From Thermococcus alcaliphilus (GTDB lineage Archaea > Methanobacteriota_B > Thermococci > Thermococcales > Thermococcaceae): a DNA stretch of 64,000 bases. Positions within the stretch are counted from its first letter, which is position 1, and the number at the start of each line of letters is the position of its first letter. Shown one piece after another: positions 6,510-42,270 of the stretch. The stretch covers positions 1 through 64,000 of the forward strand of contig NZ_JAMXLV010000020.1 in NCBI RefSeq assembly GCF_024054535.1, given 5' to 3'. The notes beneath the pieces are model-generated. The model ran no database searches, was not told the DNA's origin, and saw nothing but the letters and a program-made list of their open reading frames with translations. Both the position numbers and the translations under genes were made by a program.

Positions 6510-6537
6510 TAACTTTTAAGTTATAACTTCTAACTTT
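6510..6537. repeat. Four contiguous 7-bp repeats (TAASTTW heptads)
   Basis: Reading the + strand gives TAACTTT, TAAGTTA, TAACTTC, TAACTTT in unbroken 7-base phase. The array fills the space between the convergent ends of the reductase gene and topA and runs over the topA stop codon. Related arrays lie at 27083-27110, 41115-41149 and 42250-42270; the last two flank the parA gene pair. Role unknown; a protein-binding site is proposed in the findings. Confidence 0.75.
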
Positions 6538-9500
6538 TACCTTTTCTCCGATTTTTGTAGCAGTTCATATCAAGGCATACCTCGTATTCCCTGTTGCGTT
6601 CCTTGATCTTCACTATTGGGGCATTTCCGCACTCAGGACATGTTTTTCCCGTTGGAATTATCTCGCCCCTTTGGAGAAGGGGATAAGTAACGTCACAGTT
6701 AGGCCAATTGGAGCAGCCCACAAATCTTTTTCCTGTTTTCCTGTTATATCTCACCACTAAGTCGCCGCCGCATTTAGGACACTTCCCCACTATTATAGTG
6801 TCCATAGATCTTCTCTTTTCAACAGATTTTTTGATGCTCTCTTCTTCTTCGGCAGTTAGTTCTTTTGTATCGGCGCTTTTCTTATTCTTTTTGTTTTTCT
6901 GGCTCTCTACAAACGTTTCCAGAAGTTTTCTCCCTATTTCTCCCTCTTTCTTTTTGAACTCCTTTAGAATTCTTACTAAGGCTTCCTTAGACTCCTCAAT
7001 GACCTTCTCCTTGCTTATTTTCTTCTGCATTATCTGTTCCATTTTTTCTTCGAACTCTCTCGTTAGTTCAACACTTACTATATCAGGGACGTTGTTTTCC
7101 AAGGCTTCTATCACCTTCATACCAAGAGGGGTCACCTTTATCTTTTTCTTGCCCTCTATGTATCCCCTCGAATAGAGAGTTTCTAGGATTTGAGCCCTTG
7201 TGGCCTTAGTTCCAATGCCTAGGTCTTCCATTTTTTTGATAACGCTTGCTGGAGAATACCTTGCCGGAGGTTTGGTTTTCTTCTTCTCCCTCTTTATCTG
7301 AATAACTTTGACTCTCTCTCCTTTCTCGAACTTTGGAAGCAGAACTTCATCAAATTTAACATACTTACCGTAAATCTTCAGCCATCCCTCTTTAACTGTT
7401 CTCGAACCACTGAGGATAAAGCGGTGGTTGTTTGAGTTTATGATTACCTTCATACTCTCTCTTACGGCAGGATCAGCGAATGCAGCTAGGAATCTCCTAA
7501 CTATCAAATCGTAAAGATTTTGCTCATCTTTGCTTAGATCTCCAGGTTTAGGTAGCTCACCGGTGGGATATATTGCCGGATGAGCAGGATCATCTTTTTT
7601 GCCTTCTACGGGTTTTAAAACTCCTTTACCCAAAAGTTCATGAGCATGGGGCTTGTAATCCGGAATTTTGGCAAGGTTATGGATAATCGATTCATAGTTC
7701 AAGTTTTTTGGAAGCTTTTGGGACGAGGTTCTTGGATAGGAACAATTGTGAACTACAACACCATTAGCGATGAAGTTATGGTATGTATCAACGACAAGAT
7801 CATAAACCTTGCCTCGGTAGTGGAACTTCTCAATGGATTTTATTCCGAGTATATAAACGTCTCCGGTTGCTATTCTGCGGAGATCTTGATCGATTAAGTA
7901 TCTTACAATATTTCGAAGCTTGTCGAGGCTGATTCTTCTACCGTGGGCGGTTTGGTTTGACATATCAAAATTCTTCCATAAGGCGTTGGTTGATAGTATT
8001 TTTCCTTCCCAGCTTTTTACCTTAATGAGGCTATAGTGGTGTGAATAGGGTTTTCTTTCCCTAATAGCGGTATCTTTAACACTCTCCAAATCGCGTCTTT
8101 TGATCCTCAAGCGATCTTTCATTATCTCATAAAACCTTTGAGCATCACGTGAATATATTTTAAGCTCATAAGCTATAACGCTACCATTCTTATCTTTCTT
8201 TTCCCAGAGATATGTACCGACTCCAAGAAACTGCCACATCAGTTTAACTGTGTATATCGCTTCTCGGTTTTTAGAGGTAAGAACTATCTGAGGGGAGAGG
8301 GATTTTTTGCTTCCAGTTTGCTTTGTACCAATGTGGGAGTCAGCGTCATAATAACCTGCTAAAAATGCTGCCACCCATTCAGGTTTTGCCATTATTATCC
8401 CAGGAATTCTGAAAATTTCTGTTTTGTTTCCATAGGGACAGCCAAGCAGCTCAAGAAGTCTTGTTAACGACTTGTTATTGATTGCAATTATGAGGTATTT
8501 GGGATTGAACGTGAAGGATAGTCCCAAGGAGTTTGTAACACTTTTAACGGCTTCTATTGTATCCTTTGTTCTTTCTTTTGCAGAGATTGTTATCTCTCCT
8601 CTTCTGTTCAAATGACCGTCACCTACTACAAGACCAAATAAGTACCAAAAGTCCTCACTAAATTCAAAGGTAATCGGAGTGGTAGCTGTGCTATAAGAGA
8701 ACCCTTTAAATGTCCTCCTTAGTTCAGAATCAGAGATGATACCTCTCTGTAGTAAGAACTTAACAAGTGGAACCGGCATTTTGCCTCGCAGATATTTATA
8801 GTATGTTGGTTCTTTTATTTCGAATTTCCACAGGATTTCTGTTTTCAAGCTTGCACTTTTTACTCTTTTCTTTATAATCTCCCCAAATTCTCGGTCGTAG
8901 ATTATGTAGTCCTTCATGGAGACAGCGTTTTCAAGGAGGAAGTCCAAAAGTGTTGGAGGTTCCTCATTCTCGGGAGGTTTGTCCCTATTTATAAGAAGAA
9001 CAACTTGGTCATCCCCTCTTAGTTCTTCAGCTGGAACAAACATAAGCTTATCCTCCCTATACACTAGCACTGGATGATCTGCGGTGAGATATAGTTCCGT
9101 CCTGTCAGTTAGTGTGACCTTGTACATTGGTTCATCCGCGTCCCTCTCCAAAAGCTTATAACCAGCTTTTGATAGTTTTAGATCAAAATCAAGGGCAAAA
9201 ACCTCTCCTTCTTTGGGTAGCTCCCTTATTCTCTTAATTCCTTGGGGAGTTGGTATTAGAGAATCAGGATGTAGACAATAGCCCTTTTCATACAAGCTTT
9301 GTGCTATGTCGAGTGTCTTCTTTGGGCTGTAGCCGAAGGCAGAGTAAGCTTCTCTTTGGAGTGTCCCAAGGTCAAAGGGATGAGGAGGATTTCTCTGCTG
9401 CTGTTTTATCTCCACTTTCTCTACAAATGCAGATCCTTTTTTAGCCTCTTCAACGATTTTCTTGGCCTCTTCCTCATTAAAAATACGGTCTTTCTCGTAG

Positions 9501-10222
9501 ACGGCTGTGTACTGTTGGCCGTTTTTTTCGAGAATCATTTTTATGACCCAGTACGGCGTGGGGACGAAATTTGCTATTTCCCTCTCCCTTTCAACCAAGA
9601 ACTTCAACGTCGGCCCTTGAACCCTGCCCGTGCTTAAAACTATCCACTTGCCGCTGGCTTTTCTTATAGCCGAGCTCAATGCTCTAGAGAGGTTCACTCC
9701 CCAGTACCAGTCAAGTACATGCCTTGCTATTCCTGCATCTGCCATTCCAAAGTTAATCGTCGGCTCTAGGTTATACCATGCTCTTAGCAGATCTTTTTTT
9801 GTGAGTGCGGAAAACTTCATTCTCTTGGCTTTTGAAGGATCAACGCCGCAGGCATATTTTAATGCCGTATACCCTATTACCTCACCTTCGGTATCGTAGT
9901 CACACGCAACGACAAACTCATCCGCTCTCTTTGCAAGCTCCCTAAGGGCTTTTATGTAATCCTTAGCGTAGCTTTTTCCCTTTTCCGCAACATAAACGGG
10001 GACCCATTCTATATCAAAAACCGGGTAGCCGTAAGTTTTCTCCTTCGGAGCGAGAGAGAAGAGGTGTCCAACAGCTGGAGCAACTATTATCTTTTTCCCA
10101 TCCCTTGTCAGCTCATAGTAGGGAACTTTACCGATGGTCTTCCTTATTGGTTTCTTTTCGGCAAGTGCATAGGCTATTTTTCTGGCTACATTGGGCTTCT
10201 CTGCAATTATGAGCGTAGTCAT
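6530..10222 (-). CDS. topA: DNA topoisomerase I (type IA), intein-containing precursor
   Basis: Relaxes negatively supercoiled DNA through a transient 5'-phosphotyrosine link. The precursor has 1230 residues; removing the 511-residue intein leaves a 719-residue enzyme, a normal size. The N-terminal TOPRIM domain shows [13 protein letters not shown] and the acidic CDYDTEGE. The catalytic tyrosine is in CSYPRTSSQ directly after the intein. The C-terminus carries two zinc-binding segments (CPKCGG...CSNWPNC and CPECGN...CLDMNC). Start at 10222 gives the conserved [10 protein letters not shown]; longer frames run into the structured RNA upstream. GAGAGGGAT precedes the start. Confidence 0.95.
7745..9277 (-). 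mobile_element. Intein with LAGLIDADG homing endonuclease inside topA
   Basis: Self-splicing protein insert of 511 residues (precursor residues 316-826). It starts with Cys ([17 protein letters not shown]) and ends VVVHN, followed by extein Cys. The block B motif TADHPVLV and the C-terminal block [13 protein letters not shown] are intact. Two LAGLIDADG-like segments, [11 protein letters not shown] and [13 protein letters not shown], indicate a homing endonuclease that looks intact by sequence. The insertion point is two residues before the catalytic Tyr of topoisomerase I, so enzyme activity requires splicing. Confidence 0.95.
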
Positions 10223-10271
10223 GATATCCCTCTCAATTCCTTTAGAGGGGTGGTATAAGAATTTTTTGGAA

Positions 10272-10434
10272 GTTGTGGGCCGGCAACAGAGGCCCGCGTT
10301 CACTTTTCGCGCGGGTGGATGCACCGGCCCTGTGGGCTCGGCGTGAGCACGCTCCGCTCATAGAGCCCGATACCTTGCGGAGGCGGGTTTGACCGAGCCC
10401 ATGCGAGGAGACTAATTGTCCCCTCGCTGTCGGC
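10272..10434 (-). ncRNA. GC-rich H/ACA-type guide RNA (two ACA-tailed hairpins)
   Basis: A GC-rich island in AT-rich DNA. On the reverse strand one hairpin has an 8-bp base stem (GGGCTCGG with CCGAGCCC, 10393-10400 and 10334-10341), an internal loop, an upper stem CTCCGC/GCGGAG, then ACA at 10333-10331. A second has GGGCCGG/CCGGCCC (10324-10330 with 10277-10283), internal loop, upper stem CCCGCG/CGCGGG, a loop with CGAAAAGTGAA that fits a K-loop, then ACA at 10276-10274. A third 10-bp hairpin (10403-10427) lies at the 5' end. ACA directly after each stem occurs only on this strand, which fixes orientation. TTTAAC near 10457 could be the TATA element. GC-rich H/ACA RNAs of this kind are known in Pyrococcus. 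Confidence 0.8.
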
Positions 10435-27082: not shown

Positions 27083-27110
27083 TAAGTTATAACTTTTAAC
27101 TTAAAAGTTA
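27083..27110. repeat. Four contiguous 7-bp repeats (TAASTTW heptads)
   Basis: Reads TAAGTTA, TAACTTT, TAACTTA, AAAGTTA in phase on the + strand. The 16-base TTCTAACTTTTAAGTT of the 6.5-kb array is present here in inverse orientation (27098-27113). It occupies nearly the whole gap between moaB and moeA. Confidence 0.72.
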
Positions 27111-27122
27111 GAAGGTGATAAG

Positions 27123-41114: not shown

Positions 41115-41172
41115 TAACTTATAAGTTATAACTTATATCTTATAACTGCCAAGATTTATAACTTCTAAGCTC
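41115..41172. repeat. Heptad repeat array upstream of parA (five in phase plus two)
   Basis: TAACTTA, TAAGTTA, TAACTTA, TATCTTA, TAACTGC run without gaps from 41115 to 41149; TAACTTC and TAAGCTC follow off-phase at 41159-41172. The array covers the probable parA promoter (TATA-like TTTATAAC near 41155-41162) and ends 13 bases before the parA ATG. It is the longest such array in the window. Position suggests both autoregulation and a partition site. Confidence 0.78.
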
Positions 41173-41184
41173 GTAGATAAAGGC

Positions 41185-41934
41185 ATGCCGGTGATAAGTA
41201 TTGCAAATCAAAAAGGTGGAGTAGGAAAGAGCACCACTGCAATAAACCTTTCAGCTGCATTGGCACTCAAAGGAAAAAGAGTTCTTCTCGTTGATATGGA
41301 TCCCCAAGGAGCAACGACAGTCGGACTTGGGTTTAGAGATGCTACTCCAACTATCTACAACGTGATCTTAGACGAAGTGGATACTGAAGATGCAATAATC
41401 CCCACTGAAATAGAAGGGCTTGAGCTGATCCCAAGCAACATTGCACTAAGCGGTGCTGAAATTGAGCTCAGCAGCCAAATAGGGAGGGAGTACATCCTAA
41501 GAAACAAACTTGCTAAAATTAAGGATGATTACGACTACGTCATAATAGACACTCCTCCCTCTCTCGGCATTTTAACGATGAATTCCCTTGTCGCCAGCGA
41601 TGAAGTGATAATACCGATTCAGGCAGAATACTATGCTCTAGAGGGAATCGGTCTCCTGCTAAAGGCGATAAAACTTGTTAGGGAAAGATTGGGTATTCCC
41701 CTCGAGATTAGAGGGTTCTTAATCACTATGTTCGATAAAAGAACCAATTTATCCAAGGAAGTCAGGGAAGAGGTAAAGAGAATATTTGGAGAAAAGGTGT
41801 TCAGAACTATGATCCCAAGAAACGTAAAGCTGGCTGAAGCGCCTTCCCATGGAAAGCCAATTTTTCTATATGCACCGGACAGCAGAGGTGCTAAGGCATA
41901 TATGAAGCTTGCCGAGGAGGTTGATGGTGTATGA
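41185..41934 (+). CDS. parA: ParA/Soj-type partition ATPase (SegA-like)
   Basis: 249-residue Walker ATPase of the ParA/MinD superfamily. Deviant Walker A KGGVGKSTTAINLSAALA at residue 9, VDMDPQGATTVGLG, Walker B YVIIDTPPSLGILTMNSL, and the ParA-type end RNVKLAEAPSHGKPIFLYAP. There is no N-terminal DNA-binding extension, so it is of the short type that binds DNA non-specifically as a dimer. Its stop overlaps the next gene by 4 bases, forming a classic ATPase-plus-partner operon. Confidence 0.93.
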   Translation: MPVISIANQKGGVGKSTTAINLSAALALKGKRVLLVDMDPQGATTVGLGFRDATPTIYNVILDEVDTEDAIIPTEIEGLELIPSNIALSGAEIELSSQIGREYILRNKLAKIKDDYDYVIIDTPPSLGILTMNSLVASDEVIIPIQAEYYALEGIGLLLKAIKLVRERLGIPLEIRGFLITMFDKRTNLSKEVREEVKRIFGEKVFRTMIPRNVKLAEAPSHGKPIFLYAPDSRGAKAYMKLAEEVDGV

Positions 41935-42239
41935 AGAAGAAAAAAGCCCTTGGGAGGGGACTGGAAGCAATAATCTCCGAGCCGATGCCCAAGTTAGAAA
42001 GCCCCCAAAAGGAGGAGATAAATGGAGAAGCACTCGAAAGAAGCTTGCAGGAGGCTTTAAAAAATCCAAGGATTACCTTGTGGTCTCCCGAAGCTGCGGC
42101 AGTGCTTAGATATCTGAGGAAAACTATTCCCGAATTCAGCATCTCAAACGAAGCAAGCAAGCTTTTGGAAAAAGCAATAAGAGAAAAGTACCCAGAGATA
42201 TGGAGTGTAGTTGAAAAGAGATTGAAAGAGCTTGAATAG
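41931..42239 (+). CDS. ParA partner: ParB-like tail plus ribbon-helix-helix-like domain
   Basis: 102 residues. The N-terminus (MKKKKALGRGLEAIISEP) matches the LGRGLxALI tail by which bacterial ParB stimulates ParA ATPase. The ParB CTPase and helix-turn-helix domains are absent. Instead the C-terminal half has a strand-helix-helix layout (RITLWS, PEAAAVLRYLRKTIPE, ISNEASKLLEKAIREKY), which resembles ribbon-helix-helix proteins such as archaeal SegB. Overlap with parA (ATGA) implies coupled translation. I infer a site-specific DNA adaptor for ParA. The RHH reading needs structure prediction. Confidence 0.75.
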   Translation: MKKKKALGRGLEAIISEPMPKLESPQKEEINGEALERSLQEALKNPRITLWSPEAAAVLRYLRKTIPEFSISNEASKLLEKAIREKYPEIWSVVEKRLKELE

Positions 42240-42249
42240 CTCTTCCTTC

Positions 42250-42270
42250 TAACTTTTAAGTTGTAAGTGA
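42250..42270. repeat. Three heptad repeats downstream of the parA operon
   Basis: TAACTTT, TAAGTTG, TAAGTGA in phase, beginning 11 bases after the partner gene stop and ending just before the glycerophosphodiesterase start. Shares the 16-base TTCTAACTTTTAAGTT (42247-42262) exactly with the 6.5-kb array. Confidence 0.68.

Follow-up and report, generated by a model that had tools for sequence, protein, structure and literature searches.

Contiguous heptad arrays as candidate chromosomal partition sites of SegAB systems in Thermococcus and methanogen-type archaea

The window analysed here, a 64-kb (64,000-nucleotide) stretch of DNA from Thermococcus alcaliphilus, encodes a pair of genes in which a ParA-type ATPase, SegA, is followed by its partner SegB with a 4-bp overlap (segA ends at 41934 and segB starts at 41931), as in SegAB systems. 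Contiguous 7-bp repeats flank the pair on both sides, and two extra arrays (6510-6544 and 27083-27117), beyond the pair recognised in the preliminary description of this stretch, lie elsewhere in the window. The features are as follows.

41115..41149, no strand assigned: heptad array 1, five TAASTTA-type units in phase, directly 5′ of the segA promoter; putative operator and centromere of the system
41149..41161, plus strand: candidate archaeal BRE/TATA (CCAAGA TTTATAA), some 27 bp ahead of the segA ATG
41185..41934, plus strand: segA, ParA-type deviant Walker ATPase (KGGVGKS), 249 aa
41931..42239, plus strand: segB, 102-aa SegB homologue with an N-terminal ParB-like box, KKKALGRGLEAI, and a C-terminal SegB domain
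42250..42270, no strand assigned: heptad array 2, three units directly 3′ of segB; a fourth, GAACTAT, is degenerate
6510..6544, no strand assigned: heptad array 3, five units where two genes converge, entering the 3′ end of the second
27083..27117, no strand assigned: heptad array 4, five units in a 43-bp gap between moaB-like and moeA-like genes

The BRE/TATA motif is an archaeal promoter element, and identical letters stand upstream of segA in two relatives (G074 and G077). From their translations, we take the genes flanking array 3 to be a 393-aa geranylgeranyl-reductase-like gene and a topoisomerase-like gene; the names moaB-like and moeA-like at array 4 are likewise presumed from the translations. 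A DNA topoisomerase I-like ORF of 1264 aa on the minus strand of the window (6530-10324) contains, as read from its translation, an apparent intein (an endonuclease-like insert).

SegA matches PF13614 (AAA_31) at 2.9e-67 and carries NQKGGVGKST; a tree of 25 SegAs groups the five from Thermococcus together with support 97/97. A SegB profile built from 12 genus relatives and searched against the PDB retrieved the SegB structures 7duv_A (1e-11) and 7dv2_A (3.2e-11). The suggestion that the locus encodes a ParAB/SegAB-like system therefore holds, the ParA-like gene being SegA and the 102-aa partner a SegB homologue by sequence. Family searches with the 102-aa protein found no Pfam family at E≤1, and so neither ParB_N nor HTH_ParB, no SegB family in NCBIfam (one chance row at E 0.16) and nothing in PHROGs at E≤0.1. 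AlphaFold reached a pLDDT of 52.4 with 12 close sequences and a moderate 74.7 with 30 diverse SegBs; the latter monomer model, inspected for a ribbon-helix-helix, has predicted helices at residues 53-65 and 71-86 and no strand. With this model, Foldseek had no match at E≤0.001 and no SegB among its rows up to E 10, and the best two of five rows from VIA-align were 7duv and 7dv2, at low Z scores of 4.5 and 4.3, over 54 residues with 41% identity. Among Thermococcales, SegB is present in 13 of 94 genomes, comprising all 13 of genus g1 and no other genus; in one of these (G085) only the last 18 residues are present, at a contig end.

A scan of contigs seeded with the N-terminal stretch of SegB recovered seven loci, namely three metagenome-assembled (MAG) relatives and four bacterial ParBs. 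The SegB N-terminus (residues 3-31 or more) matches these ParBs at 43%, 48% and, in two cases, 35-36% identity, which is a likeness and not a statement of function. All four carry ParB_N and HTH_ParB in Pfam, with a KGGVGK-bearing frame approximately 0.7 kb upstream of each, and the N-terminal box of bacterial ParB is the ParA contact. We observed that the euryarchaeal SegB N-terminus (window 41931-41970; L060-L063) resembles the bacterial chromosomal ParB box, although SegB has been described as without identity to bacterial proteins.

Read directly, positions 41115-41149 are TAACTTA TAAGTTA TAACTTA TATCTTA TAACTGC and positions 42250-42270 are TAACTTT TAAGTTG TAAGTGA. The five and three in-phase TAASTTW repeats originally described thus stand by register but not by exact match, as three of the five units before segA are exact, the fourth carries one mismatch and the fifth two, while one of the three after segB is exact and the other two have one mismatch each. 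Arrays of three TAASTTN units occur at four places in the window and nine in the genome. Searching both strands of the window for three TAASTT units at 7-bp pitch with ≤1 mismatch gave 12 overlapping matches, compared with none at pitches 6 and 8 to 13, two at pitch 14 (a multiple of 7), and a mean of 0.015 (maximum 1) in 200 dinucleotide shuffles of the window. Across the assembly (1.89 Mb, 25 contigs), all matches at ≤1 mismatch resolve into nine arrays on contigs C18 and C20 only, and, judging by the site order in the closed relative G077, C18 and C20 are probably adjacent.

For comparison within the genus we used the pattern TAASTTNTAASTTNTAASTT at ≤1 mismatch, with the reversed pattern as control, and nine of the 13 genomes, the fragmented G081, G082, G083 and G085 being left out. 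This yielded 68 arrays, which range from 3 to 7 units when units are counted by a 4-of-5 core rule. Exact TAASTTW on one strand accounts for 152 of 323 units; because units were selected by their core, core frequencies are biased, and to a smaller degree those of the outer T and A. At the centre, C and G are about equally frequent, and neighbouring centres follow no fixed order (GC 69, GG 66, CG 64, CC 53), which indicates that the odd palindrome TAA-S-TTA can stand in either orientation. Grouped by flanking proteins, with two post-segB arrays pooled into the segA-upstream group, the 68 arrays fall into 13 site groups, of which three are found in all nine genomes, one in eight and the rest in one to seven. 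An array lies upstream of segA in 7/9 genomes and just after segB in 6/9, and every genome has at least one of the two, so that the arrays near parA predicted for relatives are present throughout. The site of array 3 is kept in 5/9 genomes and that of array 4 in 9/9. At this moaB/moeA site, G076 and G074 are exactly 7 bp longer than the other seven, the extra segment being a good heptad in G076 and a degenerate one in G074.

A mechanical ORF picker classified the contexts of the 68 arrays as 20 convergent, 24 tandem, 6 divergent and 18 intragenic, although nine of the 18 represent a single genuine mid-gene site and several more reflect spurious or end-overlapping ORFs. The mid-gene site, kept in 9/9 genomes, sits inside a 533-aa coding gene that, from its translation, we take to be carbamoyltransferase-like. 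There, all nine SegB genomes read NLKLAYAGG, with lysine replacing a proline that is kept in 30/30 of the SegB-less Thermococcales searched (30 of 81). The nine-residue window ranks 44th of 525 from the bottom in conservation and is weakly conserved anyway, so the proline, rather than general divergence, is the telling point. These contexts bear on the idea that the arrays serve as plain operators for a transcription regulator (SegB or some other one), with the segA-upstream array providing simple autoregulation. Array 1 does abut the likely segA BRE/TATA, as such an operator might, but 20 of the 68 arrays lie between convergent ORFs, a conserved one is mid-gene and the sites cluster round segAB (see below), and we regard this account as very unlikely.

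Arrays and SegB occur together well beyond this genus. All 13 SegB-bearing Thermococcales genomes have arrays (207 overlapping matches, reversed control 0), and the 81 SegB-less ones have four matches in three genomes, with five reversed-control matches in five. Across 396 archaeal genomes, which include the 94 Thermococcales and in which SegB was called at E≤0.001, SegB is present in 35; at least seven array matches were found in 29 of these 35 vs. none of the 361 genomes without SegB, where 13 have one or two matches and none has more. Outside Thermococcales, the corresponding figures are 16/22 and 0/280. Six of the 35 SegB-bearing genomes lack a TAASTTN array set, with no matches in G104, G120, G255, G271 and G360 and two in G222. 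Families f7, f38, f82 and f91 account for the array-bearing genomes outside Thermococcales and are, we take it, probably Methanobacteria; the label Methanothermobacter-like used below is an assumption of the same kind. Given that the array-bearing genomes comprise few clades, one Thermococcales genus and four Methanobacteria-like families, the co-occurrence rests on few independent events and its force is limited. Among the genomes compared, heptad runs are common only where a SegAB-type system is present, and they are probably its docking sites for chromosome sharing. Arrays of three TAASTTA units were also counted in 12 stretches of IMG/VR contigs (L216-L227; one contig twice).

The AT-rich unit would suit AT-rich repeats arisen by chance or a family of mobile repeats. 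However, the reversed control is 0 in 13/13 genus genomes, the window has nothing at pitches 6 and 8-13, and the orthologous sites are fixed; we consider the probability of such an origin negligible. A different DNA-binding protein, co-inherited with segAB by chance, could also read the heptads: few clades have both arrays and segAB, and SegB is a candidate reader. Against this, the arrays adjoin segAB in Thermococcus and in the other array-bearing clades, and a 2025 genome-wide study reports no other gene consistently linked to segAB (PMC12284271), which makes an unrelated reader highly improbable.

We evaluated chromosomal placement in closed genomes, with p-values that take sites as independent in genomes that are related, and with cdc6 as the proxy for the replication origin. 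Enrichment had been proposed near both parA and the origin. The first was recovered in all five closed Thermococcus genomes, where sites are nearer segAB than under uniform placement (mean-distance p 0.00005, the test floor, to 0.007). The second divides by lineage. Near-cdc6 enrichment at p<0.05 was found in 6/7 closed genomes outside Thermococcales (7 of the 16 array-bearing ones there were covered) but in none of the five closed Thermococcus genomes, whose sites are 287 to 887 kb away from the best orc1/cdc6 and not significantly closer to it than under uniform placement (p 0.26 to 0.88), so that closeness to cdc6 is rejected for Thermococcus. Clustering round segAB reaches p≤0.00025 in three Methanothermobacter-like genomes. 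G218, G254 and G373 carry segAB at 41-42 kb from their best cdc6, and every site entered in the test is 9 to 86 kb away from that gene (p≤0.0001; for G373 among the matches listed, 10 of 14). The remaining genomes are more varied with respect to cdc6: the sites of G288 stand at an intermediate distance (109 to 213 kb, p 0.0175); G356 gives a mixed picture (p 0.0175), with two of its sites 20 and 50 kb from its second cdc6; the one merged site of G339 is at 23 kb (p 0.025); and G116 falls above 0.05 (p 0.094). Clustering round segAB is weak in G356 (p 0.059) and G116 (p 0.092).

Three further features were noted in these genomes. G074 has a second cdc6-like gene above the family cut-off (C1:1339272-1340357) amid its arrays, which was excluded from the placement test; G079 also has a second cdc6-like gene, on another contig than most of its arrays. 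In G288 (L208-L212), six near-identical four- or five-unit arrays lie within approximately 63 kb, more uniform than elsewhere, as if recently homogenised.

The Thermococcus distribution invites the question of whether the arrays, as SegB sites, act mainly in chromosome folding (loops, domains, SMC loading or blocking) rather than in segregation. In the five closed Thermococcus genomes the arrays extend over arcs of 348-582 kb, or 17 to 31% of the chromosome, away from cdc6, and Sulfolobus SegB is described as bridging distant sites and forming loops (PMC12284271). On the other hand, the cdc6-side clusters in Methanothermobacter-like genomes resemble bacterial parS sets, and the system has a ParA partner and a ParB-like N-terminal box. 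We consider a mainly folding role unlikely, with the qualification that folding and segregation are reported together in Sulfolobus, so the two may not be true alternatives.

The proposed sites can be compared with three known partition systems. The SegAB of Saccharolobus/Sulfolobus likewise has a SegA ATPase, a homologous SegB (7duv/7dv2) and overlapping genes. According to the 2025 study, Sulfolobus SegB sites lie both upstream of segA and at other chromosomal positions; they consist of a 13-bp palindrome, TCTAGASTCTAGA, with 83.7% inside genes (PMC12284271). Candidate sites here differ in having 3-7 contiguous TAASTTA heptads per array, many of them intergenic. In the window, the Sulfolobus palindrome shows no enrichment, with 14 matches at ≤3 mismatches vs. 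20 expected. Thermococcus sibiricus was scanned with the Sulfolobus motif in the same study, which gives seven weak sites, none near segAB, regards euryarchaeal sites of quite different sequence as likely, and takes the 193 hits at a looser threshold as degenerate sites (PMC12284271). Our genome G078, which is probably T. sibiricus, the species of that scan without near-segAB sites, has heptad arrays on both flanks of segAB.

The delta/omega system of pSM19035, a ParA with a ribbon-helix-helix ParB, likewise uses contiguous in-phase 7-bp units in mixed orientation. Its parS has 7-10 heptads, each bound by one omega dimer, and full ATPase stimulation requires at least four contiguous heptads (PMC9499535). 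On DNA, both omega and SegB have been described as forming a left-handed helix, with differing dimer interfaces (PMC9178275). The omega system differs from the present one in being plasmid-borne with a non-palindromic WATCACW unit, whereas the arrays here are chromosomal and dispersed. The analogy with omega drawn at the outset thus survives in the architecture of contiguous in-phase heptads but not in the letters: two-unit WATCACW matches at ≤2 mismatches number 3 in the window vs. 5.1 expected. Omega is also absent from the sequence matches of the SegB profile search.

Bacterial chromosomal ParABS systems share a ParA homologue, several sites per chromosome and the ParB N-terminal box, and the likeness extends to sites near cdc6 at p<0.05 in six of the seven closed non-Thermococcales genomes. 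They differ in that SegB has neither ParB_N nor HTH_ParB and that Thermococcus sites lie away from cdc6. The 16-bp parS consensus has no match in the window at ≤3 mismatches (0.28 expected).

The arrays, their register and conservation, their co-occurrence with SegB, their clustering round segAB and the homology of SegB were all computed here. Judged on these sequence comparisons, the TAASTTA heptads are very probably a SegB-bound chromosomal centromere and the segAB operator, the DNA half of a SegAB partition system. The proposal that the heptads are centromere and operator is supported by SegB homology, by arrays near segAB in 9/9 genomes compared and in 13/13 genus genomes overall, and by at least seven matches in 16/22 SegB genomes outside the order. 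SegB dimers would bind head-to-tail 7-bp TAASTTA units, perhaps one dimer per heptad and several per array, coating each array; bridging would gather the arrays of a domain into one partition complex. Through its ParB-like N-terminal box, SegB would engage the SegA ATPase and may stimulate it, and SegA, riding on bulk DNA, would move or position the complex and so bring about segregation. The array upstream of segA would let SegB govern its own operon, and the position of array 1 just upstream of the likely BRE/TATA fits such autoregulation. This proposed sequence of coating, gathering and SegA action draws, by analogy, on omega, with its dimer per heptad and four contiguous units (PMC9499535), and on SegB, with its helical wrapping, dimers of dimers and looping (PMC9178275, PMC12284271).

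We also looked for a 7-bp register in other SegB lineages, resampling the DNA upstream of segA with a first-order Markov model (p≤0.05, single lag, uncorrected). The test covered 24 of 26 loci, G222 and G373 being left out as segA was not identifiable in the fetched stretch. Periodicity of 7 bp exceeds resampling in 21/24 loci and was not found in G255, G271 and G288. In G104, from another order of the same class, CCTAAAG/CTTTAGG-like units recur at 7/14/21-bp periodicity upstream of segA (p 0.030), and the coding DNA of the segB linker is also 7-bp periodic under synonymous-codon shuffles (p 0.009 at lag 7, 0/2000 at lag 14). Linker signals are weaker in the Sulfolobales-like G255 (p 0.0085 and 0.011), are limited to one lag in G120 (lag 7 p 0.0025, lag 14 p 0.20) and, leaving aside G271, whose repeats are exact copies, show no clear lag-7 excess in the remaining SegBs.

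The G104 locus (L064, 444-550 and 1341-1550) has approximately 15 in-phase heptads of different sequence upstream of segA, with SegB linker DNA in 7-bp register. A viral-labelled contig, L215 (1965-2035 and 2870-3020), encodes a close relative with both 7-bp features by eye and by lag score. In L185 (G271), the Sulfolobales-like segB linker encodes a 14-residue repeat in eleven copies, as identical 42-bp (6 x 7) DNA repeats with the last one shortened.

Linker repeats in Metallosphaera SegB have been read as a predicted beta-helix (PMC12284271). A broader reading, which we put forward tentatively and hold to be somewhat short of an even prospect, is that a 7-bp pitch is the general archaeal SegB centromere code, whose letters have drifted between lineages: TAASTTA for Thermococcus and for Methanobacteria, the CCTAAAG/CTTTAGG type for the order to which G104 belongs, and TCTAGAS-like half-repeats for Sulfolobales. 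Some lineages might then hold the centromere inside segB, the repetitive SegB linker, till now taken as a protein repeat, being coding DNA in 7-bp register, and SegB might combine a ParB-type ParA-contact box with a heptad-reading domain.

No prior description of heptad SegB sites was found in the largely open-access literature searched. The preliminary reading is supported and extended to a putative chromosomal, multi-site heptad centromere common to Thermococcus and methanogen-type SegAB. As such, the arrays offer a concrete candidate for the DNA read by euryarchaeal SegB. If this is true, methanogens would gain a parS-like cluster on the cdc6 side, Thermococcus would gain a centromeric domain set apart from cdc6, and heptad arrays would become a marker with which to compare polyploid and low-ploidy archaea.
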